Assembly (NCBI GenBank): GCA_026770585.1
Contig: MU647011.1
Location: forward strand, 54,339-74,525
Direction: 5' to 3'
Source of the DNA: Baffinella frigidus
Taxonomy: Eukaryota > Cryptophyceae > Cryptomonadales > Baffinellaceae
Length of the DNA: 20,187 bases
Program-made: the position numbers and the translations under genes
Shown: positions 1,082-18,652 of the stretch, piece after piece
Layout: every line of letters starts with the position of its first letter
Position numbering within the stretch: the stretch's first letter is position 1
The notes under the pieces: model-generated
Seen by the model: only the letters and a program-made list of their open reading frames with translations
Databases searched by the model: none
Told to the model about the DNA's origin: nothing

Positions 1082-4000
1082 GTCCTTTGCTCCCCAAACC
1101 CCAAACCCTAAACCCCAAACCCTAAACCCTAAACAACCCTAAACCCTAACCCCTACACCCTAAGCCCCAGACCCTAAACCCTGAACCCGAAACCTGAAAC
1201 CCGAAACCCTAAACACCCGCCCTCTTACCTGGCCTGTGTGCCGTGTTTGCCTTCGCAGGGGCGCTTTACACGAGAGCCCCGAAGCAGTCGACTGAACCGG
1301 GCATGTTTTGTACTGGGACGATGACTAAACCGGGCAGACTTAGTACCAGGAAACTCTCTGATTAGTCAACCGTCGTGGGTCAGCTTGTTTGTGGCCGGCT
1401 CAGTCAACCGTTCTTCTTGTTTCTGGCTGGTTCAGTCAACTTTCCTTCTTATTCGTGTAAAGTTGACTGAAATGCGTCTTGTTCGTGGCAGCGCTGGTGC
1501 GTGGCTGGTTCAGTCAACTGAAGAAGTTGACTGAAATGCTTCCTGTTCGTGGGTAGTAGGGCTGGTGCGTGGCTGTTTCAGTCAACTCAGGAAGCTGAAT
1601 AAACAAGTTGCCTGAAATGGTTCTCGTTCGTGGGTTGCAGGGCTGGCGCTGCAGCTGTTGACTGCAATGCTTCTTATCGACTGAAATGCGCCCAAGAAGT
1701 TGACTGAAATTCCTCTTGTTCGTGGGTGGCAGGGCTGGTGCTGCAGCTGCAGGGAGGCCAGATCGCTGTCATCAAGGAGGTGCTTGGGGTTTCGTGTTTC
1801 GAGGCTGTTCAGGGGTTTACGGTTTCGGGTGTTCGGGTTTCGGGTTTTATAGTCCCCCCGGGACGACTCCAAAACAACGTCGCCGTTCTAGCACACAGCT
1901 AGCCGGGGAGATTTTGCGAAAGTCAATCCCCATACAAACCGTCGTCTTTTGAGCAGATTGAGGGCGCCAATACGCCGTAATCGCCGTAGGCGTGACTTCA
2001 ATTCCTCTTGCGTTTTAAAACGCTACCGCTTAGCAGGCACCGTGGTCCTTTTCGCCCGGATTTCCGGGCGAGGTTCCGGTTTGGGTCCACAGCAACGGAT
2101 AAGATTTGTACCGGAATAGTTTAGATGGACCGGTTCCTGCAGTCCCCGGTGGCTGCTGAGTGGTGGATCGCTGTCATCAAGGAGGTGCTTGGGGTTTCGT
2201 GTTTCGAGGCTGTTCAGGGTTTATGGTTTCGGGTTTTCGGGTTTAGGGGTTTATGGTTTATGGTTTAGGGCTGGGACCCTCCCGGTACTAGGCTAGGACC
2301 CCCCCGGTACTACAGTGGACCTACCCTAACACATACCCGTCGGGGCCGGACTGATTGAGTATGTGTGGAGGGTAGGTATGCGTTATGGTGTCCACCCTTC
2401 AGGCATACTTCCTTGCATGGGGAAATCGGGGGCCGGCCGAAGGAGTATGTGTGGAGGGTAAGTATGTGTTACGGTAGCCTGTGTAAGGGTAGGTGGACTG
2501 TACTATCACCCCCACGCTGAACAGCCTGCGTTTGGGCACTGCCTATGTGCGAGTCATGGCTGGGAACAGCCTATCCACGCTGGGTACGCTCGCACCCAGC
2601 GCTGGGTGCGAGGGGTTCAGGTATAGGGCTTCGGGAACTAACGGGAACACCCCAAACGGGAACAGCCTACGTTTGCGAGCGTACCCCGTGGGGCTGTTCC
2701 GCCGGGTGCGAGCGTACCCAGGCTAGGACCCCCCCGGTACTGTCACCCCCGTGCGAGCGTACCCAGCGTGGGTAGGCTGTACCCACGCTGGGTACGCTCG
2801 CACTCGGCGCTGGGAACAGCCTACGCTGACAGCCTATGCTGTGCGAGTCAGGGCTGGGAACTGCTGGGTACGCTCGCACCCAGCGCTGGGTACGCTCGCA
2901 CCCACCATAGGGAACTGCCTCTGTTTGCGAACGTGCCCAGCGCTGGGAACAGCCTACGTTTGGGAACAGCCTACGCTGACAGCCTACGCTGTGCGAGTCA
3001 GGGCTGTGGGCAGATCGCCGTTAGCAAGGAGGAGGTTCTACACCCAATACCCTAAACCTTAAACCCTGAACTCTGAACGCCTGCACCCTAAACCCAAACC
3101 CTGGACCCGGAACCCTGAACCATACAACATGAACCATAAACACATGAACCGTAACCCCGAACCCCTAAACCCCTGAACCCTACAAAACAATTCCCCGGTG
3201 TTTCAGCAGCGCCCCAACTCGAGAATTCATAGCGGTCGTTTCAGCATCAGTAAAATCCTCTATCGGTACTGACGGCCCCCCCTTTCCCGGGCGATCCAGG
3301 TAATGCCCGACTCGCAAATGCATACCGGCCTGATCAAAATACACAAAGTCCTCCATTTGTACTGACGCCCCCCCCTCTTTCGTGCGATTCAGGTGGGCCC
3401 AGACTCAAGAGTTCATAGCGGCCTATTCAGCATCATGAAAATGCCTGATGGGTACTGACGACCCCCCCCCTTTCGTGCGTTTCAGGTGGGCCCAGACTAG
3501 AAAGTTCTTTGCGGTCGTTTCAGGAAACACAAAGTCCTGGGTTAGTACTGACGCCCCCCCCCTTTTCTTGCGTTTCAGGTGGGCACGTACTCGAGAAATC
3601 ATAGCGGTCTTATAAAAAAACATAAAGTCCTCATAGTGGTCTTATCAGAATACATAAAGTTCTCCATTTGTACTGACGACCCCCCTCTTTCCGGGCGGTT
3701 CAGGTGGGCACTGACTCGGTCAAGCTGGACGGGAACCACCCCCTGGCTGGGAAGACGTTGACCTTTGACGTTACGGTAAACCCTGAACCCTAAACCTGAA
3801 ACCCGAAACCTGAAACCCGAAACCTGAAACCCGAAGCCCAAAGCCCGAAACCCGGAACACAAAGCCCGAAGCCCGAAACCCGAAAGTTGAAACTCGAAGC
3901 CCGGAACCCGGAACCCGGAACCCGAAACCTGAAATCTGAAACCTGAAGCCCGAAGCCCGAAACCCGAAATCTGAAACCCGAAGCCCGTAACCCGAAGCCC

Positions 4001-7000
4001 GAAACCCGAAGCCCGAGGCCCGAAACCCAAAGCCCGAAACCCGAAACCCCAAACCTGAAACTCGAACCTCAGACGCCTGAAGCCCGAAGCCCGAAACCCA
4101 AAGCCCGAAACCCGAAACCCGAAAACCGAAGCCCGAAACCCGAAGCCCGAAGCCCGAAACCCACCCGAAACCAGAACCCGAAGCCCTATACCTGAAACCC
4201 TAAACCCCAAACCCCAAACCAGGTCAAGGAGATCAAGGACCGCGCTGAAGTGCTTGTAGGTGCTAAACCCCAAACCCAAACCCAAACCCCCAAACCTCAA
4301 ATCCGAAACCCCAAATCCCACACCCAGTATGGTTGTACATTATGTTTTGGGCGAGTCTTCAGAGGGGACCGCTCTTGCTAGGGCGGTGCTTGTAGGTGAT
4401 ACAGTCCACCTCCCTAACACAGGCTACCGTAACACTTACTACCTCCACACATACTCCGTCGGCCGGCCCCCGATTTCCCCCTGCAAGGAAGTATGCCTGA
4501 AGGGTGGACACCATAACGCATACCTACCCTCCACACATACTCAATCAGTCCGGCCCCGACGGGTACGTGTTAGGGTAGGTCCACTGTACACCCCAAACCC
4601 AAAGTGGTCAAGGTAATGTGAGCCCTAAAAGTACGAAACGGCTCCCAACGCCAAGCCAAATCTGTAGCTACACCCCAAACCCAAACCAGTCCTTGATTCG
4701 GCGCGGTCCTGGACAAACTTATCACAATGTACAACCATTATGGGTGTGGGGTGTGGGGTTTGGGGATTGCAGTGCTTGTAGGTGCTACACTCAACCCTAA
4801 ACCCCAACCCCAACCCCAACCCCCTGACCCCTAGACCGCGCTGAAGCGCTTGTAGGTGCCACACTAAACCCCAAAGCCCAAAGCCCACACCGAATCCCCA
4901 AACCCCAACCCCCACACCCACTATGGTTGTACGTTATGAGTTCAAGGACCGCGCCGAAGAGCTTGTAGGTGCTACACTCAACCCTAAACCCCAATCCCCA
5001 ATCCCCAAACCCCAAACTCAACACCCAGTATGGTTCTTAACAGGGTTGTTAAGAGGCCCGCCCCAAACTTATCACACCCAGTATGGTTGTACGTTATATC
5101 ACACCCAGTATGGTTGTACGTTATACTTATCACACCTATACTTATCACACCCAGTATGGTTGTACGTTATATCACACCCAGTATGGTTGTACGTTATATC
5201 ACACCCAGTATGGCTGTACGTTATCACACCCAGTATGGTTGTACGTTACGATAAGTTTGGGGCAAGCCTCCCGAGAATCCTAAAGCCTAAACCCTAATCC
5301 CTTAAACCCAAACCCTAAACCCTAAACCCTAAACCCTAAACCCTGAACTCTAAACCCCAAACTCTAAACCCAAACCCCAAACCCCAGACCCTAAACCCCA
5401 AACCCCTGAACCCTACGCAGTCCAATTGAGGACCTCCCGAAACCCACAAAACCATAAACCATAAACCATAAACCCTGAACCCTAAACCCTAAACTTTAAA
5501 CCCTATACCCCGACCCCAAACCCCAGACCCTAAACCCCAAACCCCTAAACCCTACGCAGTCCAATTCCGAAGGTGCCACTCCTGCTCGGGCCTCTCGAGA
5601 ACCCTAATTCATCATCCCTGAACCCTAAAACCTAAAACCTAAACCCTAAACCGCGAACAGGCAAGATTTCGCAGATGCTGACCGTCCTCGACGCGGACGT
5701 GTGGACAGCTGAGAATACGTTTTACAACTGTAGAACGCTGTACAACTCAACGCAATACGTTTTAGAACTCTACTACGTTTTAGTTGCTGCATAAAAATTT
5801 GTTAAACGGACGGACGTGCTGACGGTACGTATTTGCTGACGGGTCGCGTCCGCAAACAGGCAAGATCTCGCAGATGATGACCGTGCTCGACAACCCTGTC
5901 ATGGTCATGCTCGCCACTGAGGTCCCCTACCCCTACACCCTACACCCTAGCCCCTACACCCTAGCCCCTACACCCTAGCCCCTACACCCTAGCCCCTACA
6001 CCCTAGCCCCTACACCCTAGCCCCTACACCCTAGCCCCTACACCCTAGCCCCCTACACCCTACACCCTAAACCCTACACCCTACACCATACACCCTTCAC
6101 CCTAGCCCCTACACGCCGGTGTTTGATTCTCAAATTTGCCCCGGCAAAGGAGTGAGTCCTCCACCGGTCGGTTGTTGACCTTTGGCGTGTGCCACACGGT
6201 GGACCACGAACCTTTCATCAAAAGTCAACTTGCCTGAAGACAATTAACTTTACGAAGTTTTCTGATGCAAATTGGTCACGTATCACCCTGTGGTTACCAC
6301 GCCAGATTGGAGGAGGGTGGTGACTGTCTTAATACCGTACCCTGGTACGGTAGTGACTTTTGGAAACAACTGCCTTGAGGGAAAATTGACTTTTGGCGAC
6401 ACCTTCCTGGAATCTGGCGTGGTGCGCCAAACGTGTGGCGAGGGCAGACCACGATGGCCACACGCGGCTGAAAGAGGGAGTATTTTAAATGTGGGTTTGT
6501 TAAATTTAGTACCAGTCACGGGCAGGTTTGGTCACGTAGCTGGGGGAATTCCCCCAACTACGTGACCAAACGCCCCTATTTGTGTGAATTTTACTACACA
6601 TTTTTTTTTCCACTTGTAAAAGAATCCCTGTTTTTAAAAAGTCACATTTCTAGCCTCGAGTGGGGCCACACGCGGCTATCCATGCGAACATAATAAAAGT
6701 CAGTTATAGCGTTTTGTAGGGAGAGGCGCGCGCGCTTTTCGGGCGCCACGCGACCAAACATATGAAAATTACTTACACACGCTTACAATTGACATTTATT
6801 CGGTTTGCATGGATAGCCTCGTGTGGGGCACGCCAAAGGTGGGGGCGTGCCCCCCACCTTTGGCGTGCCCCACTAGAAATCGCTAAGGCGTATATCTACA
6901 AGATTAAGGCGTCTAGTCTATCTACAAGAAATCACACGATAACCTCGTGTGGGGCACGCCGTGTTCAGGGTTTAGGTTTTAGGGATTAGGGTTTAGGGTT

Positions 7001-10000
7001 TATGGTTCTCGTGAGGCCCGCCCCAAACCTATCATAACGTACAACCATACTGGGTGTTGAGTTTGGGGTTTGGGGATTGGGGATTACCGGTGGCGCCACC
7101 GGTAGTAGCGGTGCCAGTTTCAGAAGACCCCCAGTCCTGAAGGCCTTTCTCACCCCGACAACTTTTGACAGATCACGAAGAAGGATGACTACGTCGATGA
7201 GATCAAGAAGACTCTCTCGGAGGCCACGGACAAGGTGCCTGAACCCTAAACCCTAAACCCTAAACCCTAAATCTTAAACCCCAAACTCCAAACCCCAAAC
7301 CCAAAACCCCAAACCCTAAACCCTGAACCTTAACACCTTAACCCCTTAAACCCTAAACCCTAAACCCTAAACCCTAAACCCTAAACCCTAAACCCTCAAT
7401 CCTAAACCCTCAATCCTAAACCCTCAATCCTAAACCCTAACCCGTAAACCCTTAACCCTAACACCAAACCCTTAAACCCTAAACCTTAACTTTACAGGGG
7501 GCGGCGCTGAACGAGATCCTCGGGTAAACCCTAAACCCTAAACCAACCCTAGACCCTAGACCCTAAACCCTAAACCCTAAACCCTAAACCCTACACCCTA
7601 AACCCTAAACCCTAAACCTAAAACCTAAACCCTGAAACCTTAACCAGGTCGGAGGATTGGATCACCATCAACGCCGCGCTCATGAGGTCCTTTGATCCTT
7701 AGGGGATTATTCGGGCTCACCAACCGCGAATCCAGCGTGTCATCTTGAGAATAGTCGGTCAACGAAATCCTCGGGTCAGAGGAATACATCAGTGTGAGGT
7801 CCGGGGTGCTTACGGATTTCAGAAGGAAACGGATTTAATTTCGATCACCTTTTGCTGTCTGCATTCTTTCAGCCATTTCTTAGGGCTTTAAATGCCTTGG
7901 GTTTGCTCGTTTTACAATGCCTTCCGGAAGCTAACAAAGCCCTCGGTGCGTTGTGCGCAGCAACTCAGACCCTAGACCCTAAACCCTAATCCCTCAACCA
8001 TAAACGGGTTTACCCCCAGTACTAACGGCCCGAGGCGAGCTCACAAATCGTAAACCCTGAACGCTAATCCCCAACCCCTAAATTCTAAACCCTAAACCTT
8101 GAACCCGAAACCCGAAACCCGAAACCCGAAACCCTAAAACCTTAACCCTAAACCCTAAACCCCACATTGAGTGCCTCACGTCCTAAACCCTAAACCCTAA
8201 ACCCTAAACCCTAAACCCTAAACCCTAAACCCTTAACCCTTAACCCTAAATCCTAAACTAAACCCTGAACCCTAAACCCTAAACCCTCTAAACCCTAAAC
8301 CCTTATAAATCCTAACCCCTACGCCCTCCGCAACAGCAACCCGCAACTTCAGGAGCTCTTCACAAACCTGTGCGCAACCTAAACCCCAAACCCCCAAACC
8401 CTAAACCCTAACCCCCAAAACCCAGCACCAGCTGCAGACCACACAGAGGGCTGCGCAGGGGAAAAAGCTTCATAATCAACCCATTTCTGGTTACCTTATC
8501 CGTAGGAACTCCCCCCTATGTCCCTACGGATCGCCTACCGTAGGGTCGTAGGTCTTATCGCTTAAGGGTTGTTCAAAATCCCGTCCAAGCCCGCTGCGTG
8601 AGTAGTGCCCTCCGCAACAGCAACTCGGGTTGCTGGGCCCTATGGTGGTCCTAGGGGGGTGGGCGTTTCTTATGGGCGAGGTACCCCTGTACTCTGCTTC
8701 AGGAGCTCTTCACACTCCTGCGCGCAACCCAACCCCCAAACCCTAAACCCTAACCCCTAACCCCAACACCAGCTGCAGAGTACAGGGGTACCTCGCTCAT
8801 AAGAAACGCCCACCCCCCTAGGACCCTACAGTAAGCCTACGCCTAGGGCCCTATGGTGCTAACTGTAGGGTCCTAGGGGGGGGCTTACTGTAGGGTCCTA
8901 GGCGGGGGCGGTTTCTTATAAGCGAGGTATCCCTGCAGCGGCTCAAAGTCGGTCTTCGGGAGAACGGGATTTCCCCCAGACGATAATCTTAAAAGCGTAT
9001 CAGCCATCTATTCACCCCCCTAGGAACCTCCTAGGTCCCTAGGCGTGTCCTACCGTAGGAGTCGAAGTAGCTGTCGGGTCGCAAAATCCAGCACCAGCTG
9101 TAGAGTAGTGTCCTCCAGATCTATCCCCAGCTGCAGCAGCTCCTCAAGGATCCTAAACTCTTAACCCTAACCCCCATCCCCGAAGCGCAGCAAGTTAATT
9201 TCGGACCAAGACAGAATCTGTCCCGCTATCTTAGGCTCCCCACGCGGAAGGTAAGGGTGTATATGCTATTTCAGGCATCAAATAATGCTATCTTACGCCT
9301 TTTCATCAGGACAGATTCTGGTATGGTCCGAGATGAAAGTCCAACCCATCAGCTGTTGCATATCCCTTAAGTGGCCAGTAGGCGCATACGCCCTACCGTA
9401 GGGCCCTAGGACCTGCCTACGATCTCCTTGCGGTCAAATTTGACCGGTTGGCCACTTAAGGGATGTGTACACTTAAGGGATAGCGCCGTCCCGAGGCGGG
9501 CCGCACGCTGACAAACCCACTTTGTTTCGGCGGAAACCGAGGATTTTGAGAGGTTACTGTCCACCTACCCTAACACATACCCGTCGGGGCCGGACTGATT
9601 GAGTATGTGTGGAGGGTAGGTATGCGTTATGGTGTCCACCCTTCAGGCATACTTCCTTGCAGGGGGAAATCGGGGGCCGGCCGAAGGAGTATGTGTGGAG
9701 GGTAAGTATGTGTTACGGTAGCCTGTGTTAGGGTATGTGGACTGTTGTCCGAACTGAACCCTGCACGCTAAACCCTCTTGATGAGCAGCAACCCGCAGCT
9801 GCAGCAGCTCCCCACAGACCCTAGACCCCAAACCCTAAACCCTAAACCCTAACCTCTCAACCCTAAACTCTCAACCCTAAACTCTCAACCCTAAAGCCTC
9901 AACCCTCAACCCTAAACCCTAAACCCTAAAAAGGGTTTACCCCTGATACAGTCGATCTAACGGCCCGAGGCGGGCTCACATACCCTAAACCCCAACCCTT

Positions 10001-11753
10001 TCGAGCAGCAACCCACAGCTCCTGAGCAGCAACCCACAGCTCCTGACAGTCTTGGAGCTATTTCGTACGTGTACAGGGGTACCTCGCTCATAAGAAACCG
10101 ACCCCCCCTAGGACCCTACAGTAGGCCTATGCCTAGGGTCCTATGGTGGTCCCTAGGGAGGGGGGGGAGGGTTCTTATGAGCGAGGTACCCCTGTAGGGC
10201 TTCAAATGCCTTCGTGTTTTCCCGGACATATTGCAGATGGAAAGCCTAACCCCTACACCCTCCTCAACAGCAACCCGCAGCTCCAGCAGCTTCTCACAGA
10301 CCCCGTCGCCTCAGAAGAAACCCCTAGACCTTGAACCCTAGACCCTAGACCCTAGACCCTAGACCCTAGACCCCAGACCCTAGACCCCAGACCCTAGACC
10401 CCAGACCCTAGATCCTAGACCCTGGACCCCAACCCCCGGATATCTTGCAGATGGAAAGCCTAACCTCTAACCCCTCCTCAACAGCAACCCGCAGCTGCAG
10501 CAGCTTCTCACAGACCCCGTCGCCTCCGAAGAAACCCCTACACCCTGAACCCTAGACCCTGGACCCTAGACCCTGAAACCTGAATCCTAGACCCTAGACC
10601 CTAGACCCTAGACCCAGAACATATTGCAGATGGAAAGCCTAACCCCTACACCCCCCTCTACAGCAACCCGCAGCTCCAGCAGCTCCTCACACAGACCCCG
10701 TCACCTTCGAAGAAACCCATAAACCCGAGACCCTAGACCCTAGACCCCAGACCCTAGACCTCAGACCCTAGACCCTGGACCCTGGACCCCAACCCCCAGA
10801 TATCTTGTAGGTGGAAACCCTAACCTCTAACCCCTCCTCAACAGCAACCCGCAGCTGCAGCAGCTCCTCACAGACCCCGTGGCCTCCGAGGAAGTCAAGC
10901 GCCGTATGCTCGAAGCCCGGGAGGCCAAGCAGTCTGGGGTGAGTTGCCGAATCCCTCTCTCTCTGTCGCTCGCTCGCTCGCTCTCTCTCTCTCTCTCGCG
11001 CGCGCGCTCTTTCCCACCCTCCCTCCTTCCCTCTCGATCTGTCTCTCTCTACTACAGCCCCTGGACTACAGCTCTCTTTTCAAAATCCAGCTTGCCCTGA
11101 GGAAGTGGACGTTGAGGCATTTATCAAATTTGATCAAATTTGATCAAATGCTCAGATTTGATCAGACGTGATCAAATTGGATTTCGCGACCCCCGGATTC
11201 CGGGGGTCTTGAAACCCCCTACATCCTACACCCGAAACCTGAAACCCCAAACACCAAACACCAAACACCAAACACCAAACACCAAACACCAAACATCAAA
11301 CCCCACACCCCAAACCCCAAACCCCAAACCCCACACCCCACACCCCACACCCCACACCCCACACCCCAAACCCCAAACCCCAAACCCCAAACCCCAAACC
11401 CCAAATCCCAAACCCCACACCCCAAACCCCAAACCCCAAACCCCAAACCCCACACCCCAAACCCCAAACGCGCGGCTGCGGCCCAGGACGTGGCCAGTGC
11501 CGCTTCGGTCCCCGAGGCCGACTTCGGACACGCCTCGTGATTCCGTGTTGACCGATGGAAACGCCGCACACCGTGCAAACCCACTCACTCTGCACACACA
11601 GAGAGCTGCGTAACCTGCCAATTTGATGGTCAAACTCCAGCCACTCAACAGCCTGACGGAAGATCCTCTCGTGTGTGGCAGGGCGCGGCAGCGGCCCAGG
11701 ACGCGGCGAGCGCCGCCTCGGTCCCCGAGGCTGACTTCGGCGAGGACGCGTGA
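1030..11753 (+). CDS. Gene 1: SlyD-like FKBP peptidyl-prolyl isomerase with helical C-terminal extension (10 exons, 5' partial)
   Basis: Ten exons: 1030-1081, 1733-1779, 3704-3775, 4223-4259, 5860-5921, 7172-7234, 7498-7523, 7648-7686, 10845-10938 and 11682-11753. All have GT...AG borders and together give 564 nt, i.e. 187 residues plus stop, with no frame break. Residues about 1-70 match the C-terminal half of SlyD-type FKBPs: VPMDQMP...GMELTPG (end of the flap-insert domain), then DGNHPLAGKTLTFDVTV (last FKBP strands), then KEI. Such enzymes isomerise X-Pro bonds and act as chaperones. The remaining ~115 residues are an extension rich in helix formers, with NPQLQQLLTDP slightly recalling STI1/ubiquilin-type repeats, and an Ala-rich acidic tail. 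The FKBP N-terminal half (the strands before the flap, any transit peptide and the start codon) was not found here and probably lies upstream. Homology of exon 3 is secure. The exact borders of exons 4 and 5 are less so. Confidence 0.8.
1091..1217 (+). repeat. CCCTAAA/CCCGAAA heptamer run in intron 1
   Basis: Plant-type telomere heptamers and variants begin about 10 bp inside the intron after exon 1, with the C-rich strand in the sense direction. Confidence 0.85.
1250..1746 (+). repeat. Tandem array of intron-1 3' splice junctions (68-92 bp units)
   Basis: Acceptor-plus-exon-head units start at 1492, 1560, 1641 and 1733 (exon 2); 1259 is a more distant copy (CTTCGCAG/GGGCGC). Each carries AGTTGACTGAAATG, then TGTTCGTGGG, then a (G)CAG or TAG, then GGCTGGTGC. 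Units differ in how many exon bases they include; the 1641 unit has about 17. Confidence 0.75.
1733..1779 (+). CDS. Gene 1 exon 2: FKBP strand LVLQLQGGQIAVIKE
   Basis: The acceptor is TCGTGGGTGGCAG, downstream of a pyrimidine-rich stretch. The exon has two bases that complete Gly, then LVLQLQGGQIAVIKE, then the donor GTGCTT. Joined to exon 3 it gives IAVIKEVGTDSVKLDGN, the expected strand-turn-strand before the DGNHPLAG motif. The exon end recurs at about 2167-2185 and 3012-3027, and inverted near 376-398. The start was chosen by phase: AG at 1731-1732 is the acceptor that keeps frame with exon 1. Confidence 0.72.
1786..2220. repeat. Inverted, permuted repeat block (copy B)
   Basis: Reverse complement of 144-540 with the halves swapped (~1851-2012 matches 144-310; 2010-2220 matches ~340-540). 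A third partial unit at 1762-1815 overlaps the genuine exon 2 end. Here the + strand carries G-rich heptamers (GGTTTCGGG), against the general orientation of gene 1. Confidence 0.75.
2313..2500 (+). mobile_element. MITE family D, Tc1/mariner-like ends, copy 1
   Basis: A 188-bp element with ends CAGTGGACCTACCC and GGGTAGGTGGACTG, flanked by TA. CAGT/ACTG ends at TA are typical of Tc1/mariner-type elements. No coding capacity. The left flank CCCCCCCGGTAC and right flank TCACCCCC resemble the uninterrupted sequence at about 2726-2746. Confidence 0.85.
2515..3010. repeat. Short-motif satellite built from CTGGGTACGCTCGCACC and GGGAACAGCCTACG
   Basis: Both motifs recur many times, in both orientations (GGTGCGAGCGTACCC is the reverse form), with no heptamers. 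It lies in intron 2. ORFs crossing it (MRAYPAW..., MGRLYPRW...) are products of the repeat. Confidence 0.8.
3046..3190 (+). repeat. CCCTAAA-like run in intron 2
   Basis: Degenerate heptamers (CCTAAACCTTAAACCC, AACCATAAAC), C-rich on the sense strand, between the exon-2 echo at 3012 and the 93-bp array. Confidence 0.8.
3207..3703 (+). repeat. 93-bp tandem array of the exon-3 acceptor
   Basis: Acceptor positions give unit starts at 3207, 3300, 3393, 3486 and 3579, exactly 93 bp apart, then the real exon at 3704 (125 bp; the last unit has an internal duplication of CATAAAGT(C/T)CTC). Each unit has GTACTGACG, a run of C, (T)TTCAG, then a variant of GTGGGCACTGACTCG, i.e. the exon's first bases. 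Confidence 0.88.
3704..3775 (+). CDS. Gene 1 exon 3: FKBP signature DGNHPLAGKTLTF
   Basis: 24 codons reading VGTDSVKL, then DGNHPLAGKTLTFDVT. The D-x-NHPLAGK-x-L-x-F motif is diagnostic of SlyD-like FKBPs. It forms the strand and loop that close the FKBP fold after the flap insert. The acceptor is GGGCGGTTCAG and the donor is ACG/GTAAAC. The acceptor and first ~16 exon bases are echoed five times upstream at an exact 93-bp spacing. The codons have high GC at third positions, unlike the repeats around them. This is the strongest homology anchor in the window. Confidence 0.9.
3776..4222 (+). repeat. Intron 3: 447 nt of degenerate CCCTAAA heptamers
   Basis: It starts GTAAACCCTGAACCC and ends AAACCCCAAACCAG. 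Almost every base fits a 7-mer (CCCGAAA, CCCGAAG, CCCTAAA). It is bounded by GGT on both sides (TTACGGTAAAC, CCAGGTCAAG). Long ORFs in it on the minus strand (GFRVSGFGF...) are heptamer translations. Confidence 0.9.
4223..4259 (+). CDS. Gene 1 exon 4: last FKBP strand VKEIKDRAEVL
   Basis: After AACCAG, GTC AAG GAG ATC AAG GAC CGC GCT GAA GTG CTT GTA G reads VKEIKDRAEVLV plus one base, if the donor is GTGCTA at 4260. An alternative donor at 4256 (GTAGGT) removes two codons and then requires exon 5 to start at 5874; both choices stay in frame. FDVTV followed by KEI(K/R)xA is how SlyD-type FKBP domains normally end. Tail fragments of this exon plus GTAGGTGCT recur at 4385-4399, 4771-4787, 4834-4858 and 4941-4971. 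Confidence 0.72.
4262..5060 (+). repeat. Intron 4 filler: heptamers, exon-4 echoes and GTATGGTTGTACGTTAT motifs
   Basis: CCCCAAA/CCCTAAA runs alternate with copies of the exon-4 tail (near 4385, 4771, 4834, 4941) and of CACCCAGTATGGTTGTACG (4323, 4917, 5026), plus an inverted copy near 4720-4740. No further coding exon seen. Confidence 0.7.
4402..4586 (-). mobile_element. MITE family D, copy 2
   Basis: 185 bp, opposite orientation to copy 1: CAGTCCACCTCCC ... GGTAGGTCCACTG, flanked by TA. It is inserted just after an exon-4 tail echo in intron 4. Confidence 0.85.
5060..5263. repeat. Tandem ~28-bp array within inverted ends GCCCCAAACTTATC
   Basis: About six units containing ATCACACCCAGTATGG then TTGTACGTTAT lie between GCCCCAAACTTATC (5060-5073) and GATAAGTTTGGGGC (5250-5263). 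A related inverted piece is at 7015-7060. It could be a small foldback element with an expanded interior. Confidence 0.78.
5283..5656 (+). repeat. CCCTAAA/CCCCAAA runs with a duplicated spacer
   Basis: Heptamers are interrupted by two copies of CCCTACGCAGTCCAATT (about 5411 and 5551). Sense-strand C-rich, ending just before the exon-5 copy. Confidence 0.85.
5660..5713 (+). pseudogene. Paralogous copy of gene 1 exon 5
   Basis: The acceptor CGCGAACAG is followed by a reading of KISQMLTVLDADVWTAE. The 5' 35 bases are nearly identical to exon 5 with silent changes, but no GT follows GAG, so it is probably unused or was once an alternative exon. Confidence 0.65.
5860..5921 (+). CDS. Gene 1 exon 5: KISQMMTVLDNPVMVMLATE
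   Basis: After the acceptor CGCAAACAG, two bases and then 20 codons read KISQMMTVLDNPVMVMLATE, followed by the donor GTCCCC. A paralogous copy at 5660-5713 reads KISQMLTVLDADVWTAE with mostly synonymous or conservative changes, which supports a coding past. The internal acceptor CTCGCAG at 5873 is an alternative start that pairs with the shorter exon 4. Hydrophobic, probably helical; function of this segment unknown. Confidence 0.72.
5932..6113 (+). repeat. CCCCTACACCCTAG 14-mer array
   Basis: A homogeneous dimeric variant of the telomere heptamer, repeated about 10 times, starting about 10 bp after the exon-5 donor. Less decayed than most runs, so probably a recent expansion. Confidence 0.9.
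6195..6290 (-). repeat. Inverted copy of the 890-1000 repeat
   Basis: Contains CACGAACCTTTCATC, AAAAGTCAACTTGCC, TGAAGACAATTAAC and TTGGTCACGTATCAC, mirroring 890-1000. It lies in intron 5. Confidence 0.65.
6526..6571. repeat. 46-bp loopless palindrome
   Basis: GTTTGGTCACGTAGCTGGG followed by GGAA meets its own reverse complement at 6549 with one mismatch and no spacer. It lies in intron 5. Confidence 0.9.
6823..6873. repeat. 51-bp hairpin with 23-bp perfect arms
   Basis: GTGGGGCACGCCAAAGG and TGGGGG, loop CGTGC, then the perfect reverse complement. The motif ATAACCTCGTGTGGGGCACG recurs near 6940 and, inverted and related, near 6654-6690. Confidence 0.9.
7172..7234 (+). CDS. Gene 1 exon 6: charged helix ITKKDDYVDEIKKTLSEATDK
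   Basis: 21 codons in phase 0, between ACTTTTGACAG and the donor GTGCCT. They read ITKKDDYVDEIKK and then TLSEATDK. This is a charged, amphipathic sequence with no resemblance to the flanking repeats. The downstream intron (7235-7497) is entirely CCCTAAA-like. Confidence 0.8.
7235..7497 (+). repeat. Intron 6: 263 nt of CCCTAAA heptamers
   Basis: From GTGCCTGAACCC to CCTTAACTTTACAG the intron is nearly all CCCTAAA/CCCTCAATCCTAAA variants. Natural CTTAAC (branch-like) and a short pyrimidine stretch precede the acceptor. Confidence 0.9.
7498..7523 (+). CDS. Gene 1 exon 7: 26-nt microexon GAALNEIL(G)
   Basis: The acceptor is CTTAACTTTACAG. Eight codons, GAALNEIL, plus GG follow, and the donor is GTAAAC. 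The Gly codon is completed across the 124-nt heptamer intron by the G opening exon 8. An intronless paralogue at 7758-7798 reads VNEILGSEEYISV, confirming that exons 7 and 8 are contiguous in the message. Confidence 0.78.
7524..7647 (+). repeat. Intron 7: 124-nt intron made only of telomere heptamers
   Basis: It starts GTAAACCCTAAACCC and ends CCTTAACCAG; about 17 heptamers with little else. GGT lies at both edges (CGGGTAAAC and CCAGGTCGG). The paralogue at 7758-7798 lacks it. Confidence 0.92.
7648..7686 (+). CDS. Gene 1 exon 8: SEDWITINAALM
   Basis: One base, then SEDWITINAALM, then AG, between TTAACCAG and the donor GTCCTT. The trailing AG joins the leading C of exon 9 to make AGC, giving AALMSNPQLQQ. 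The exact phase fit with an exon 3.2 kb away supports the model. Confidence 0.78.
7758..7798 (+). pseudogene. Intronless copy of gene 1 exons 7+8
   Basis: Reads VNEILGSEEYISV plus AG, then GTCCGG. It aligns to the joined exons 7 and 8 (LNEILG/SEDWITI) but lacks the 124-nt heptamer intron at GG/GT. It lies 72 bp downstream of exon 8. Confidence 0.7.
7970..8325 (+). repeat. CCCTAAA run in intron 8
   Basis: Several nearly perfect blocks of CCCTAAA and CCCGAAA, broken by a ~45-bp spacer (GGCCCGAGGCGAGCTCAC, 8004-8048) that recurs at 9930-9981. Confidence 0.88.
8439..8601. mobile_element. MITE family E, copy 1
   Basis: Ends CACACAGAGGGCTGCG and AAGCCCGCTGCGTG; interior with CCTACGGATCGCCTACCGTAGGG. 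Homologous to 14453-14613 and 15643-15805. Confidence 0.7.
8636..8689. mobile_element. MITE family A, right-half fragment
   Basis: CCTATGGTGGTCCTAGG ... GCGTTTCTTATGGGCG, AGGTACCCCTG then TA. The left half is missing. It sits inside an exon-9 echo. Confidence 0.75.
8783..8936. mobile_element. MITE family A, full copy with enlarged core
   Basis: CAGGGGTACCTCGCTCATAA ... TTATAAGCGAGGTATCCCTG, preceded by TA. About 154 bp because the core ACTGTAGGGTCCTAGG is duplicated. Confidence 0.85.
9200..9332. mobile_element. Single-copy inverted-repeat element
   Basis: Arms TTCGGACCAAGACAGAATC(TGTCC) and GGACAGATTCTGGTATGGTC(CGA), ~24 bp, about 85 bp apart. It resembles a MITE of a family seen only once here. 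Confidence 0.6.
9361..9464. mobile_element. MITE family B, copy 1
   Basis: TATCCCTTAAGTGGCCAGTA ... GGTTGGCCACTTAAGGGAT, 104 bp. The core is GCCCTACCGTAGGGCCCTAG, followed by TCAAATTTGACCGG. An extra end fragment (CACTTAAGGGATA) follows at 9470-9482. Confidence 0.85.
9557..9744 (+). mobile_element. MITE family D, copy 3
   Basis: 188 bp, same orientation as copy 1. Left end CTGTCCACCTACCC after TA; right end GTATGTGGACTG before TT (decayed target copy). Confidence 0.83.
9815..9930 (+). repeat. CCCTAAA/CCCTCAA run
   Basis: Heptamers after an exon-9 echo in intron 8, C-rich on the sense strand. Confidence 0.85.
10074..10194. mobile_element. MITE family A, full copy
   Basis: 121 bp, TA-flanked. 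Terminal arms CAGGGGTACCTCGCTCATAA and its complement; core CCTACAGTAGGCCTATGCC. Last MITE inside gene 1. Confidence 0.88.
10224..10844 (+). repeat. ~180-210 bp tandem units preceding exon 9
   Basis: Four units begin at about 10224, 10438, 10617 and 10798 with GGA(C/T)AT(A/C)TTGCAGATGGAAA, run into the exon-9 head and (in the first three) continue into CCCTAGA heptamers. The last leads into the real exon 9. Confidence 0.85.
10845..10938 (+). CDS. Gene 1 exon 9: NPQLQQLLTDP helix segment
   Basis: The acceptor CCCCTCCTCAACAG has a CTAAC branch-like site ahead of it. One base is followed by 31 codons starting NPQLQQLLTDPVASEE, continuing VKRRMLEAREAKQSG, and then the consensus donor GTGAGT. NP-x-LQ-x-LL-x-DP weakly resembles STI1/ubiquilin-type motifs; this is suggestive only. 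Of about ten copies of this exon's head in intron 8, only this one keeps the full exon and a donor. Confidence 0.85.
10953..11060 (+). repeat. CT-rich low-complexity stretch in intron 9
   Basis: CTCTCTCTGTCGCTCGCTCG and a GCGCGC run start 15 bp after the exon-9 donor. ORFs reading SLSLARSLS come from it. Confidence 0.9.
11215..11469 (+). repeat. CCCCAAA / CCCCACA / ACCAAAC array in intron 9
   Basis: Homogeneous 7-mers: ACCAAAC first, then CCCCAAA and CCCCACA. The NPKPQTPNPK ORFs here are translations of the array. Confidence 0.92.
11470..11540 (+). pseudogene. Decayed copy of gene 1 terminal exon
   Basis: Reads RAAAAQDVASAASVPEADFG then HAS and TGA. It abuts a CCCCAAA array with no AG acceptor. 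It is a direct repeat of 11682-11753. Confidence 0.7.
11682..11753 (+). CDS. Gene 1 exon 10: terminal exon, Ala-rich acidic tail
   Basis: After GTGTGTGGCAG, 23 codons read GAAAAQDAASAASVPEADFG then EDA, with stop TGA at 11751-11753. It is in phase 0 with exon 9. A degenerate upstream copy at 11470-11540 ends in HAS and TGA but has no acceptor AG, so this downstream copy is taken as the used one. No clear polyadenylation signal was recognised. Confidence 0.83.
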   Translation, partial: GAAAAQDAASAASVPEADFGEDA

Positions 11754-11769: not shown

Positions 11770-11797
11770 CAAGTGGCGAGTAGGCTCATACGCCCTA
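11770..11797. mobile_element. MITE family B left-end fragment
   Basis: CAAGTGGCGAGTAGGCTCAT, then ACGCCCTA, matches the family B left part. It stops at the TA where a family A element begins. Confidence 0.7.
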
Positions 11798-11915
11798 CAG
11801 GGGTACCTCGCTCATAAGAAACCGCCACCTCCTAGGACCCTACAGTAGGCCTATGCCTAGGACCCTACGGTGGTCCTAGGGGGGGGGGCAGTTTCTTATG
11901 AGCGAGGTACCCCTG
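11798..11915. mobile_element. MITE family A, copy at end of gene 1
   Basis: 118 bp, TA on both sides, complete arms. It lies 45 bp beyond the gene 1 stop and is inserted in a B fragment. Confidence 0.88.
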
Positions 11916-12176
11916 TACACCCTGGACGCGTCCCCAGTCGCTGCCCCAGCATCGACGCTGTGTGAACCCATGTGAGGACCATCAAAATAGCCCAATATCC
12001 TCAAGTCTACATAAATGACTTATGTTTTCCGCCTGAGGCGGGCTCGTCCCGAGATGGTCCTCACAACCAACGTGCGGCGAAACTTGGGTTCGAACAGTGA
12101 ACACAGGCATACATGTACGCCACCCGTCTCTTCATTCACCCGACGCCACACGCGCCGCTCTGAACCATAAACGATA
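11916..12176. other. Intergenic stretch, nothing firm
   Basis: No ORF or splice-supported exon seen. There is a small inverted repeat GTGAGGACCATC (11973) / GATGGTCCTCAC (12054) and a GAGGCGGGCTCGTCC motif related to 8030 and 9965. Confidence 0.5.
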
Positions 12177-12300
12177 CAGGGGTACCTCGCTCATAAGAAA
12201 CGCCCACCCCCCTAGGATCACCGTAGGGCCCTACTAGGCATGGGCCTACTGTAGGGTCCTAGCTAGGGGGGGTTGCTTTCTGATGAGCGAGGTACTCCTG
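12177..12300. mobile_element. MITE family A, full copy
   Basis: 124 bp, TA-flanked; the right arm is slightly decayed (GGTACTCCTG). Confidence 0.87.
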
Positions 12301-12333
12301 TAAACCCCACACCCTAAGGCGCATACCCCTGTA

Positions 12334-12464
12334 CAGGGGTACCTCGCTCATAAGAAACTGCACCCCCCCCGGGACCACCATAGGGCCCTACATGTAGACA
12401 TAGTCCTACATGTACTGTAGGGTCCTAGAGGGGGGCGCGGTTTCTTGGGAGCGAGGTACCCCTG
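12334..12464. mobile_element. MITE family A, full copy
   Basis: 131 bp, TA-flanked, preceded by the end fragment TACCCCTG, suggesting insertion beside or into an older copy. Confidence 0.87.
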
Positions 12465-12469
12465 TAGGC

Positions 12470-12536
12470 CTACGGTAGGACCCTAGGTAGGACCCTAGGG
12501 CGGAGCGTGTCCTGAATTTCGAGTAACCCCTGCACT
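12470..12536. mobile_element. MITE family C, right-half fragment
   Basis: CCTACGGTAGGACCCTAGG ... GTGTCCTGAATTTCGAG then TAACCCCTGCA; the same end as the full element at 13771-13887. Confidence 0.72.
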
Positions 12537-12600
12537 TGATGCACAGTTCAAACCGTGGAATAAGCCACAGCATAACGAAAAATGTGGAACTTGCGATGTA

Positions 12601-12717
12601 CAGGGGTACCTCGCTCATAAGAAACCGCCCCCCCCTAGGACCCTACAGTAGGGCTATGCCTGGGGTCCTATGGTGCTCCTAGGGGGGTGGGCGTTTCTTA
12701 TGAGCGAGGTACCCCTG
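12601..12717. mobile_element. MITE family A flanked by 40-bp direct repeats
   Basis: 117 bp element, TA-flanked. The 40 bp before it (12561-12600, TAAGCCACAGCATAACGAAA...) recur after it (12718-12757) with two differences. Confidence 0.88.
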
Positions 12718-12870
12718 TAAGCCACAGCATAGTGAAAAATGTGGAACTTGCGATGTACGCAGCAGACCTCTCCTTTTTTTGAGCGCCCTAACTGTGTTGT
12801 GTTCTCAGTAAGTGCGCGTATCCACCACTCATGTGTCGATACTGAGCGAAAACACACCAAAGGTTTTGTG

Positions 12871-12961
12871 GCGAGGCGGTCAAAATTGATCCCAAGAGGT
12901 GCTAGGCAGGTCCTAGGGTCCTACGGTAGGGTGTACGAGCCTACTCGCCACTTAAGGGATA
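12871..12961. mobile_element. MITE family B, decayed copy
   Basis: CCCAAGAGGTGCTAGGCAGG ... CCTACTCGCCACTTAAGGGA, then TA. The outer left end is lost. The TA at its right end is the insertion site of family D copy 4. Confidence 0.72.
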
Positions 12962-13149
12962 CAGTGCACCTACCCTAACACAGGCTACCGTAACACGTAC
13001 TTACCCTCCACACATACTCCTTCGGCCGGCCCCCGATTTCCCCCTGCAAGGAATTATGCCTGAAGGGTGGACACCATAACGCATACCTACCCTCCACACA
13101 TACTCAATCAGTCCGGCCCCGACGGGTATGTGTTAGGGTAGGTGGACTG
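12962..13149 (-). mobile_element. MITE family D, copy 4
   Basis: 188 bp, TA-flanked, CAGTGCACCTACCC ... GGGTAGGTGGACTG. It is inserted exactly at the end of a B element, 134 bp from the gene 2 stop. Confidence 0.86.
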
Positions 13150-13283
13150 TACCCCAGATTGCCGTCGTCTGGTTGGTGCTTTGTATTACACTCAACACCC
13201 CCTCTCACGCCTTCCTCACCATCGAGGAAAAAGTTGACTTTAGCGGGCCGTGCCGCCGTCAAGTTGACTTAATAAAGTTGACT

Positions 13284-13385
13284 TTAGCGGGTCATGCCGT
13301 CGTCGAGGTCGTCAAAGTTGTCGTTGAAGTGGAAGGAAGAGCCCATGTGCAGGTCCTCGTAGCTTGCCCCCATCGTGTCGCCCTT
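13284..13385 (-). CDS. Gene 2 exon 3: acidic terminal exon
   Basis: The acceptor CCCTAAACAG (minus strand) is itself a telomere-type heptamer. 33 codons read KGDTMGASYEDLHMGSS, FHFNDNFDDLDDGMTR, then TAA (13286-13284). This low-complexity acidic/aromatic tail ends about 1.5 kb from the end of gene 1. The last codons, the stop and AGTCAACTT are repeated just downstream at 13235-13262, reading DGGTAR then TAA. Confidence 0.78.
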   Translation of the reverse strand, partial: KGDTMGASYEDLHMGSSFHFNDNFDDLDDGMTR

Positions 13386-16326
13386 CTGTTTAGGGTTTAG
13401 GGTTTAGGGTTTAGATTTCAGGGTTTGCATCAGGATTTATTTATTATTTATTATTACTTATTATTTGATATTGATTATTACTTAAGGTTCCGGGTTTCGG
13501 GTTTCGGGTTTCGGGTTCTATATCCAAGAGCTTCACTAGCTCCCACGGCGGGCCAATCCCATGCTAGCCCTCACATTTAGGGGTTTCGGGGTTGAGGTTT
13601 GGGGTTTAGGGTGTGGGGTTTGGGGTTTAGGGTTTAGGGTTTAGAGATAATTCCTTCTGCACGAGAGACGCCCCAATCTCTTCAGAGGTGGAACTCAACG
13701 GTAACCGGGTAGCGTTTGTTGCGTTTACTAGCCCTACCGCAGGACCCTACAGTAAGACACTTTCTGGACACAGGGGCTACTCGAAATTAAGGACACGCAC
13801 CGGCTGTGGGTCCTATGGTATGGCTAGTCCTAGGAGCATAGGACCACCCCAGGGCCGGCGGGTGTCCTGAATTTCGAGTAACCCCTGCAAGCAAGGCTCC
13901 CACGAGTGTAGACTCACAACTAACCGAGGCCTCCCTACAGGGGAACCTCGCTCACAAGAAACCGCCCCCCTCTAGGACCCTACAGTAGGCCTATGCCTAG
14001 GGCTGTCTCGTAGCCCCCTAGGGGGGGGGGGCGGTTTCTTATGAGCGAGGTACCCCTGTAGTTTGGCATCCTTGCCGCTGCAGGAACCTCCCCAAAATTC
14101 CGAGGAGAAACAAAGTACCCAACGTGTTGCGCGGGGGGAAACGCTCATGACTGATGGCTAACCACCTTCTCGCGTGGTTTAGGGTATATCCCTTAAGTGA
14201 CCAGTAGGCTCATACGCCCTACCGTAGGGCCCTAGGACCTGCCTAGGGCTTCCACAGGCGATTATTCGCCCGTTGGTCACTTAAGGGATAGGGTTTAGGG
14301 TTTAGGGGGTCTGATGACTAACCACCTGGAGCCCTGTCGTGGTTCGCATCCTGCCCGCTGCAGGAATATTCCCGATACACAACGGACTGCCCGTCGCTTT
14401 ATGATTGAATGCCCCGGTGAAATCTTCGGATTGCTCGCTAGGTCTTGGCAACCACACAGAGGGCTTCGAAGGGATTTTTGGCCCAAATCGGGCCACCTTT
14501 CCGTTACTTGATCCGAAGGAACCCCCCCTACGTCCATCCGGATTGCCTACCGTAGGGTCCCAGGTCTTATCGCTCAAGGGTTATTCGAAATCCCTTCGAA
14601 GCCCGCTGTGTGGTTGACCTAGCTGCGCGAAGTTGATTGATGGGAGCGGTTGGAGCTCTTGTCTCACTGAGAAAAGAATATATTATTAGGATTAAGAGGA
14701 AAACTGGTGCGTCACGGTTCTAGATCAAAAGGGAGCGAGCGGGGGCATGGATTCTTGACCAAGCCATAGTAGAAGCTGCCATCGCAGTTGAGAGGGGAGG
14801 GCGGGAGGGAGGGGGGGAGAGAGGGCGGATTCACTTTCTCGCTGAAACATAAATTTCAAGACACTGTGGTGAGCAGAAGTGTGCTGTGCATAAATGTAAA
14901 ACACTGTGCTACACAGAGGTAGGGAGTCTGACCATGCCATAGTCGAAGCTGCCGTCAGAGTTAAGCACGTCCGAATCATCCTCCCCCCCGTCGACCTGAG
15001 TTAGGATTTCGGGTTTAGGGTTTAGGGTTTCGGGTTTAGGGTTTAGGGTTTAGGGTTTGGGTGAGAGCTGAGGTTTAGGGTGTGGGGTGTGGGGTGTGGG
15101 GTGTGGGGTGTGGGGTGTAGGGTGTAGGGTTCAGGGTTTAGGGTTTGGGGTGAGAGCAGAGGTGTAGAGTTTAAAGTTTAAAGTTTAGGGTTTAGGGTTC
15201 TGGGTTTGGGGTGTAGGGTTTAGGGTGTAGGGTTTTGGTTTTGGGTTTAGGGCGAGAGCAGCGGTTTAGGGTTTCATGCTTAGGGGTTGGGGCTTGGGGT
15301 GTAGGGTTTAGGGTTCGGGGTTTAGGGTTTAAGTTTTGGGGTGTAGGGTTCAGGGTTGGGGTTTAGGGAGAAGGATGCTACACGGGTTTGGCGTTCGAAC
15401 AGACCCTCTTCAGGGCTTAATGCGTACCCAGCGTGACAGACCCTCTTCAGGGCTTAGTGCTTCGGGTTCAGGTTGACCCTCCACCCAGCGGACTACCTAG
15501 GGATCTCGTGAATAACCCATAAGTGGATAACCCACAAGACCCTACGGTAGGCAATCCGTAGGGACTGGTTTGTTGGTACGTATATCCTCACCGATTCTCG
15601 GTGGCTCAGCCACCGAAAATCCCTTCGTAGCCCGCTGTGTGGCCACTCAGCGGCTAAGGAGGGATTTTCTGGCCGAATTTGAGTGACTTTCCTTTACCTT
15701 CTCTGTAGGAACCCCACTATGCCCCTACCGTATTGCCAACCGTGGGGTCTATGGATTACCGATTTCTGGGTTATTCAAAGAATCCCTTCGTAGTCCGCTG
15801 TGTGGAACTGTGGGGGGGTTCAGGGCTTGACCTTGTCGAGCATGCCCTTCAAGGCCCCTTCGTAGCCCGCTGTGGGGTTGGTGTCCATTTCTAGTGTTAG
15901 GGTTCAGGGCGTAGTGGTGAGGGTTTGGGGTTCAATGGTTAGGGATCAGGGCGTAATGCTTAGGGTTCAGGCTTCATAGTTAGGGAGGGAGACCTTGTCG
16001 AGCATGCCCTTGAGCGCCCAGTACTCAGGATGCGAGCGCCCCTGGTCACACAGCATGGTCAGCTGCGCCTTGAGCGCCACGCGCGCCGGCTTGTTGACCA
16101 GCGCGCGCTCGAATGCCGCCCCGATGTGCTTGTGCATCGCCTGCTCCAGCCCGAAGCGCCGGGGCGCGGGCGCGGGCGCCGAGAGCGTCACCACTGCTAC
16201 GAGGAGCCCGACGAGCGCCGCACCCCCGCACACGGCCGCGAGGCGCCCCACGCGCGCACGCGACCCTGCGCCAGGGGGGACAGCGTCAGCGCCCGTGCTT
16301 GCGATCGCGAAGGCTCCGGCAAACAC
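13284..16326 (-). CDS. Gene 2: single-pass membrane protein with acidic C-terminus (3 exons, 5' uncertain)
   Basis: Exons on the minus strand are 16326-15994, 14995-14933 and 13385-13284. They join in phase 0 to 165 codons plus stop. The first exon carries a ~24-residue hydrophobic segment (residues ~27-50, AALVGLLVAVVTL) followed by PAPAPRR and a helical, basic domain. The last two exons are rich in Asp, Gly, Phe and Met. This suggests a small anchored protein with an exposed acidic tail. I recognise no family. No in-frame ATG precedes the membrane segment in exon 1, so an upstream exon is needed. Introns hold sense-strand CCCTAAA repeats like gene 1. It converges with gene 1. Confidence 0.68.
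13389..13650 (-). repeat. TTTAGGG/TTTCGGG runs and AT-rich microsatellite, gene 2 intron 2
   Basis: G-rich on the + strand, hence CCCTAAA in the sense of gene 2. Blocks at 13389-13435, 13485-13520 and 13578-13650, with a TTATTTATTATT tract at 13437-13482. The block next to exon 3 supplies its acceptor. Confidence 0.87.
13771..13887. mobile_element. MITE family C, full copy
   Basis: 117 bp. CAGGGGCTACTCGAAATTAA ... TGAATTTCGAGTAACCCCTG, flanked by CA. The core resembles family A (GGTCCTATGGTATGG, CCTAGG). Confidence 0.82.
13938..14058. mobile_element. MITE family A, full copy in gene 2 intron 2
   Basis: 121 bp, TA-flanked. The left arm has GGGGAACCTCGCTCACAAG (two changes). Confidence 0.87.
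14061..14372. repeat. Duplicated segment around a B element
   Basis: CATCCTTGCCGCTGCAGGAA (14068) and CTGATGGCTAACCACCTT (14151) have counterparts at about 14347 and 14311 (CTGATGACTAACCACCTG). A junction-type echo is possible. Confidence 0.5.
14187..14290. mobile_element. MITE family B, full copy
   Basis: 104 bp. TATCCCTTAAGTGACCAGTA ... CCGTTGGTCACTTAAGGGAT. Its right sub-arm GGCGATTATTCGCCCG differs from copy 1, defining a subfamily shared with 17749 and 18168. Confidence 0.86.
14453..14613. mobile_element. MITE family E, copy 2
   Basis: Ends CACACAGAGGGCTTCGAAGG and CCTTCGAAGCCCGCTGTGTG; interior GATTGCCTACCGTAGGGTC. Overlapping ORFs on both strands are side effects of the inverted ends. 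Confidence 0.8.
14614..14932. other. Intron sequence with G-rich purine tract
   Basis: Apart from the exon-2 copy at 14760-14789 there is a GGGAGGGAGGGGGGGAGAGA tract (14795-14825). Nothing else recognised. Confidence 0.5.
14760..14789 (-). pseudogene. Decayed copy of gene 2 exon 2 end
   Basis: On the minus strand NCDGSFYYGL is followed by GTCAAG, matching NSDGSFDYGM/GTCAGA about 170 bp away. Confidence 0.6.
14933..14995 (-). CDS. Gene 2 exon 2: VDGGEDDSDVLNSDGSFDYGM
   Basis: 21 codons after the acceptor AATCCTAACTCAG (minus strand), reading VDGGEDDSDV then LNSDGSFDYGM, with donor GTCAGA. Phase 0 at both ends fits exons 1 and 3. A decayed copy at 14760-14789 reads NCDGSFYYGL and also ends in GTCAA, i.e. 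it keeps the donor. Confidence 0.72.
15001..15370 (-). repeat. TTTAGGG / GGGTGTGGGGTGT run, gene 2 intron 1
   Basis: 370 bp of heptamer variants with three GAGAGC(A/T)G interruptions, C-rich in the sense of gene 2, directly upstream of exon 2. Confidence 0.9.
15515..15642. mobile_element. MITE family E, inverted partial copy
   Basis: GACCCTACGGTAGGCAATCC ... AAAATCCCTTCGTAGCCCGC then TGTGTGG. Head-to-head with the next E element. Confidence 0.7.
15643..15805. mobile_element. MITE family E, copy 3
   Basis: CACTCAGCGGCTAAGGAGGG ... ATCCCTTCGTAGTCCGCTGT. A terminal fragment of the same family (CCCCTTCGTAGCCCGCTGTG) follows at 15856-15875, abutting the exon-1 echo. Confidence 0.72.
15832..15853 (-). 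pseudogene. Copy of gene 2 exon 1 end plus donor
   Basis: The minus strand reads LKGMLDK followed by GTCAAG, then heptamer-like CCCTGAACC. It repeats the real exon end at 15994. Confidence 0.62.
15895..15990 (-). repeat. Degenerate heptamer run after gene 2 exon 1 donor
   Basis: GTTAGGGTTCAGGGCGTAGT type repeats; on the sense strand CCCTAACnCTGAACCC, beginning a few bases inside intron 1. Confidence 0.78.
15994..16326 (-). CDS. Gene 2 exon 1 (first seen): membrane anchor plus helical domain
   Basis: 111 GC-rich codons running from VFAGAFAIAS to ALKGMLDK, then the donor GTCTCC. Visible parts are an Ala/Gly-rich lead, the hydrophobic stretch VCGGAALVGLLVAVVTLSA, PAPAPRR, then FGLEQAMHKHIGAAFERAL and a Lys/Arg/Ala helix. 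Reading upstream in the same frame there is a single TGA near 16356, beyond which the frame is open back to an ATG near 16473. The true acceptor or start is therefore unresolved. An exon-end copy (LKGMLDK plus GT) sits at 15832-15853. Confidence 0.7.
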
Positions 16327-18630: not shown

Positions 18631-18652
18631 TCTACTAATGCACCCTACGTTA

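Follow-up and report, generated by a model that had tools for sequence, protein, structure and literature searches.

The origin of new introns is a long-standing question. The heptamer CCCTAAA is the plant-type telomere repeat, which caps plant chromosomes. In the survey of introner elements, as far as the accessible parts of that paper go, low-complexity families were removed by hand as possible microsatellite expansions, so a class of heptamer introns would probably have been filtered out, and the main text as available holds no word beginning with 'telomer' (PMC9860276). Only some of the known introner families show terminal inverted repeats or target-site duplications. Interstitial telomeric sequences are explained, in the available sections of PMC7215372, by one-step insertion during break repair with telomerase implicated; in humans none lie in exons and 31% lie in introns, which is compatible with random insertion, and the authors leave open their effects on splicing. 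Plant telo boxes are described in the excerpted text as short motifs, concentrated in 5' UTRs and slightly under-represented in introns (PMC3022908). According to the accessible portion of PMC12730881, Amorphochlora has gained lineage-specific introns at AG|GN, half of the examined ones with [AT]n repeats, and the portion of PMC7789003 at hand describes repeated introns in Amoebophrya, a protist whose scaffold ends carry telomere repeats of the plant type. Among the titles and abstract beginnings of the literature matches listed, a set outside which subscription papers and preprints fall, no description of introns built of telomere-type repeats was found.

The window analysed here is the whole stretch of 20,187 nt (C680:54339-74525) from a genome of 382 Mb. 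A gene on its plus strand was modelled from a first exon chain, which found the protein P0001; tblastn of P0001 then added exons. No exons were found upstream of 1030-1081. The features of the gene are as follows:

1030-1081, + strand: exon 1 of the visible part of the gene (tblastn of P0001, spliced model)
1733-1779, + strand: exon 2 (tblastn of P0001, spliced model)
1780-3703, + strand: intron 2, with the lowest heptamer share (8%); position apparently common to the protein P0004
3704-3775, + strand: exon 3, with the SlyD signature DGNHPLAGKTLTFDVT (tblastn of P0001, PDB match, spliced model)
3776-4222, + strand: intron 3, 447 nt, 99% heptamer array, mostly of the CCCGAAA type
4223-4259, + strand: exon 4 (spliced model)
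5860-5921, + strand: exon 5 (spliced model); an array of the CCCTACA type comes next, at 5925-6114
7172-7234, + strand: exon 6 (tblastn of P0001, spliced model)
7235-7497, + strand: intron 6, 263 nt, 96% heptamer array
7498-7523, + strand: exon 7, 26 nt (spliced model, relatives)
7524-7647, + strand: intron 7, 124 nt, GTAAACCC...AACCAG, a CCCTAAA array (7-mer coverage and spliced model)
7648-7686, + strand: exon 8 (spliced model, relatives)
10845-10938, + strand: exon 9 (spliced model)
11682-11753, + strand: exon 10 with the stop (spliced model)

Joined, the ten exons give 564 nt with a single open frame to the stop, encoding 187 residues. Residues 1-159 of this product align with P0001 without gaps over eight junctions, the ninth lying in the gapped part. 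Querying with these 187 residues returned 26 matches, comprising six relatives with a coverage of 94-100% and an identity of 46-61%, and 20 others covering at most 43%. All six full-length relatives carry PF00254, and their alignment has no gap at the intron 7 junction. In the PDB, the product of exons 3 and 4 hits SlyD-type isomerases, with the alignment spanning the heptamer intron that separates the two exons (best E 3.3e-4), whereas the joined exon pieces themselves gave no FKBP match in Pfam, and short joined exons nothing over the curated cut-offs. By homology, the host gene is a SlyD/FKBP-type peptidyl-prolyl isomerase; the alignment of the joined exons to the relatives and the PDB match across intron 3 support splicing of introns 3, 6 and 7, and we consider it close to certain on these grounds that they are introns. 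Residues 1-60 of the protein P0007 resemble a bipartite plastid presequence (GASAAFSP), with an ASAFAP-like start, which would suggest a plastid isomerase of an alga with a red-type secondary plastid.

The first-pass annotation had described an insert of 124 nt made of CCCTAAA repeats, starting with GT and ending with AG, and this description is exact. Within intron 7, 77% of the bases lie inside exact rotations of CCCTAAA, and CCCTAAA-like 7-mers (at most one mismatch) cover 98% of it on this strand and 0% on the other; the GT...AG ends coincide with exact restoration of the reading frame. The 447-nt intron 3, also put forward as a heptamer intron, is an array by the array model (99%), but mostly one of CCCGAAA units, exact CCCTAAA accounting for 7% alone. 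By the same model the heptamer shares of introns 3, 6 and 7 are 99%, 96% and 96%, and those of the remaining six of the nine introns range from 8 to 34%. Summed over the nine introns, heptamers occupy 2889 bp in sense against 180 bp in antisense orientation. No pair of inverted repeats of at least 8 nt was found in introns 3, 6 and 7 with their flanks. We read intron 7, with moderate confidence, as a spliceosomal intron that consists entirely of tandem telomere-type heptamers and belongs to a genome-wide class, most members of which would have been born from arrays.

Recurrence was examined in the Cpn60_TCP1 family, picked without regard to heptamer content, for which ten exon matches were obtained and three places (L051, L052 and L053) examined. 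In CCT1 (L052) sense heptamers make up 60% of one intron and 57% of another, and in CCT4 (L051) 42% of one intron, with no antisense heptamer in any of the three; once joined, the exons of the two genes align to CCT chains of solved structure (E 8e-54 and 1.2e-58, respectively) with gap-free junctions. Heptamers are absent from CCT4 intron 2 and from the intron of CCT6 (L053), and three of the five fully contained CCT introns are heptamer-rich. Nineteen unselected stretches (190 kb, of which 128 kb are N) contain 73 arrays amounting to 6858 bp, or about 11% of the 62 kb of readable sequence; arrays are missing from nine of the stretches, and in those rich in arrays one strand predominates (22:2, 12:2, 10:1 and 7:1). 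Loci L002-L030 were retrieved with a query in which GGGTAAACCC stood close to the start, a bias towards arrays starting in this way; being unusable for frequencies for this reason, they gave way to the unselected stretches and whole-genome patterns. Heptamer introns thus recur in CCT1, in CCT4 and in a gene present in three copies, and array ends across the genome are anchored at acceptors, which strongly indicates a genome-wide class. Many introns with related sequence, a trait of introners, are found here as well, although in a tandem repeat relatedness need not mean copying.

A probable gene on the minus strand of the window (13300-16356) has CCCTAAA arrays on its own sense strand. Its open frame at 15967-16356 contains HKHIGAAFERALVNKPARVALKAQL, and no Pfam match was found for it. 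One of the arrays is listed here:

15001-15368, - strand: heptamer array with CCCTAAA on the minus strand, seemingly ending at an acceptor of a minus-strand gene

The ends of the arrays were characterized with whole-genome patterns. The 3' pattern AAACCCTAAACCCTAAACC[AGT][ACG]G, which picks out doubly changed array ends, has 487 matches; among the first 100 listed, 76 end in AGG (CCAG|G), where equal frequencies of the nine endings would give 11 (binomial 1.5e-51), and the rest are TAG (8), GGG, TCG, GAG and ACG (3 each), and AAG and GCG (2 each). The 5' pattern [AGT][AGT]TAAACCC(TAAACCC)2 has 630 matches, and the first 100 listed start with GG (21), TT (16), TG (14), TA (13), AA (13), GT (7), AG (6), AT (5) or GA (5). 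Two other patterns, DNTAAACCC... and CCNNG, were dropped, as internal unit variants dominate them (for CCNNG, AG in 7 of the first 100 listed). When the 19 unselected stretches are pooled with the window and the neighbouring stretch L031 (86 arrays), 54 of the 3' ends and 31 of the 5' ends have an AG nearby, and 20 of the 5' ends and 32 of the 3' ends a GT. Arrays are anchored strongly at acceptors and mildly at donors. The codon-like signal is higher after AG-ended arrays (n=83) than after other arrays (n=44; p 5e-4), than upstream (n=128, p 0.007) and than in antisense (p 0.004); this set takes in the biased loci L002-L030, and with a median of -1.5 after AG-ended arrays, far under the 9.4 of training exons, many of these places are not clear exons.

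The much weaker anchoring at 5' ends (21 of 100 against 76 of 100, and GT near 20 ends against AG near 54) means that growth from the acceptor fits as well as insertion. This favours the strongest alternative to birth from arrays, a real but lesser possibility, in which heptamers grew within older introns from a seed near the acceptor and filled some ordinary introns completely. The six introns of the isomerase gene with a heptamer share of 8-34% also speak for filling, as does the turnover of array bodies in place. One gene occurs in three copies, on C1181, C647 and C5 (the first two could be alleles), whose exons are pairwise 94%, 78% and 79% identical; a PDB search with this gene gave nothing convincing. 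All three (L023, L062 and L063) have a heptamer intron at one phase-0 site, GAGATGACG|GT(A/C)AACCC...AAACCAG|GACCT, with lengths of 136, 80 and 142 nt, none divisible by three, and the protein is in frame on either side. Their dominant units are CCCTAAA, CCCCAAA and CCCTACA, and the borders are kept. A shared site with differing bodies implies an intron older than the duplications, the body of which was replaced at least twice with its ends kept; it follows that no fresh insertion is caught there. Over 87 arrays with enough units, unit variants also cluster by array (0.59, where 500 shuffles reached no more than 0.52). Judged from these sequence comparisons, turnover of array bodies in place can be regarded as demonstrated.

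The protein P0004, 61% identical and from a 5.4-kb contig, bears on the age of the introns. Precisely at intron 2 it carries an insertion of 28 residues, with V first and Q last, and the insertion's ends resemble a read-through phase-0 GT...CAG intron; from this look, P0004 would represent genomic DNA. At the other eight junctions it has no insertion. Intron 2 thus appears to be common to P0004, the pure heptamer introns 3, 6 and 7 appear to be absent there, and the three consequently look lineage-specific. P0004 appears equally to be without the partly heptameric introns 1, 4, 5, 8 and 9, so the absence is not special to pure arrays, and intron loss in the lineage of P0004 is possible. The heptamer introns are likely to be lineage-specific. 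For filling of older introns, the difficulty is that P0004 seems to lack the three pure introns and yet shares the least heptameric one, and that introns 3, 6 and 7 retain almost no other sequence. A further difficulty is a contiguous copy of exons 7 and 8 that lacks intron 7 and adjoins it, one of several exon fragments in the region:

7756-7802, + strand, inside intron 8: degenerate contiguous copy of exons 7 and 8 without intron (junction match, blastn)
8324, 9111, 9786, 10019, 10258, 10470 and 10651, + strand: approximate starts of degenerate copies of exon 9 (exon-fragment comparison)
11470-11541, + strand: degenerate copy of exon 10 (exon-fragment comparison)

The joined exon 7/8 junction (18+18 nt) has a contiguous match of 28/36 at about 7757-7792; with the parent exons excluded, the best alternative on either strand of the window, or of those L031-L050 stretches that have fewer than 9,000 N, reaches 21/36. 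Blastn gives the copy an identity of 80.6% across 36 nt (E 5e-5 when the window is searched), and TGAGGTCC of the exon 8 donor is repeated at 7795-7802. It is the only piece spanning two exons among the local exon fragments seen. When the genome was searched with joined exon sequence (359 nt, taken from exons 3, 4 and 6-10 in part), every one of the 12 pieces at E <= 0.001 fell inside the window; no second copy of the isomerase gene was found genome-wide at that threshold, which the 36-nt fragment itself did not reach and which would pass over equally degenerate copies elsewhere. What had been called an intronless paralogue is thus contiguous and intronless, but a local exon fragment rather than a paralogous gene. 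It supports gain of intron 7 after duplication, though as a single 36-nt case; alternatively, the copy may have been made from spliced RNA. Genome-wide probes for seven other introns brought up no clear intronless copy; a gapless match on C453 over the L016 junction (84% over 50 nt) is glutamate-rich low complexity and was not counted as one. On balance, birth from arrays has a modest lead over the filling of older introns.

Between 367 and 11541 of the window, parent exons are accompanied by degenerate exon fragments, most of which adjoin splice-site context, and similar ones were seen by eye next to parent exons in L051 and L052. They may be decoy splice sites, or scars that recombination of the arrays left behind. 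Their position beside the parents, in the isomerase gene and by eye in the CCT1 and CCT4 introns, would suit an origin of the introns as by-products of local duplication, in which exon pieces with splice-site context were tandemly copied (an AGGT-type gain), giving new introns that heptamers filled later, as would CCT1 intron 2, which starts like the start of the next exon (GTCATTCCCAA / GTGATCCCGAA). We consider this unlikely, given that the edges of introns 3, 6 and 7 appear by eye to be free of exon duplication and that the decoys may instead result from array instability. The GGT shared by both edges of introns 3 and 7, which the first-pass annotation had linked to insertion, is literally present, but in 14 heptamer introns, chosen by eye from 44 listed mechanically, most from the biased loci L002-L030 and with the three CCT introns left out, the downstream exon starts with GT in only 3 and with G in 12. 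The GGT borders are accordingly ordinary splice-site context, shared GGT being splice consensus and not diagnostic of a target-site duplication, and border duplication was dropped as a mark of insertion. That intron 7 is no intron but a polymorphic or assembly-inflated repeat within a decaying gene, as low complexity, the many decoy exon pieces and an N-rich assembly (128 of 190 kb sampled) might suggest, is highly improbable in view of a frame open over nine junctions, six aligning relatives and a like pattern in CCT genes and three gene copies.

The earlier proposal of telomere-derived introners is upheld in that these are introns by homology, occur genome-wide and look lineage-specific, and the repeat unit equals the plant-type telomere repeat. 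Derivation from telomeres is unproven: a search for 14 perfect units gave 54 overlapping matches in the assembly, of which no forward one (40) begins within 17 kb of the left contig end and no reverse one (14, on ten contigs of known length) comes within 8 kb of the right end, so that none of the 54 stands at a contig end in telomere orientation and no telomere was identified by 14-unit arrays. Nor is the term introner supported in the transposon sense, the three pure introns having no inverted repeats of at least 8 nt and the array bodies evolving in place. Other repeats occur in the window. A MITE-like family of palindromic elements with ends TACAGGGGTACCTCGCTCATAAGAAAC.../...GTTTCTTATGAGCGAGGTACCCCTGTA has many copies within 11796-19967; by eye, another palindromic family, its ends resembling TATCCCTTAAGTG(A/G)CCA, lies at 14190-14290, 17750-17935, 18170-18275 and 18527-18630, and an element with GTATGTGTGGAGGGTA... 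is present in both orientations in four copies (2330-2480, 4390-4590, 9550-9745 and 12960-13150).

For birth from arrays, we infer the following origin and working mode. A short telomere-type array would enter coding DNA or grow within it, and be tolerated there because it is spliced out. Each sense CCCTAAA unit would offer C-rich sequence together with CTAAAC, which we presume to be branch-point-like, so that an array beside CCAG|G makes a ready acceptor; the first array unit preceded by G (G|GTAAACCC), or a GT upstream, would serve as donor. Later, satellite-like change through slippage and unequal exchange would remodel the body as splicing preserves both ends, and array instability plausibly made the exon-fragment decoys beside heptamer introns. 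More broadly, and tentatively, telomere-type arrays may be a recurrent source of new introns, with C-strand heptamers added at breaks or captured and forming a self-renewing class: having a built-in branch point and acceptor, they would be removed from RNA at once and hence persist and spread.

Heptamer introns suggest an overlooked route of intron origin or maintenance. Conserved genes with tandem introns of one unit and exact acceptors make intron birth from simple repeats testable, and, if the reading is true, sequence of chromosome ends would be linked to gene structure. The low-complexity filtering described in the accessible parts of the introner survey means that repeat-built introns were probably missed (PMC9860276). 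Among known systems, and on the portions of each paper available, Amoebophrya introners are defined by terminal inverted and direct repeats, whereas the pure heptamer introns have no inverted repeats (PMC7789003). Amorphochlora differs in its AT repeats and TAACCC telomeres, telomere-type intron bodies not being mentioned in the available text (PMC12730881). Plant telo boxes share the heptamer, and their spread by telomerase addition is proposed in the excerpted text, but they are not intron bodies (PMC3022908). Introner elements, as described in the same parts of the survey, are similar in that many related introns per genome supply one or both splice sites; heptamer introns differ from them in lacking inverted repeats of at least 8 nt and a diagnostic target duplication and in having a tandem-array body (PMC9860276). 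With interstitial telomeric sequences they share the nature of internal telomere-type arrays and, unlike the human ones as covered in the available sections, they end at acceptors and can be an entire intron (PMC7215372).
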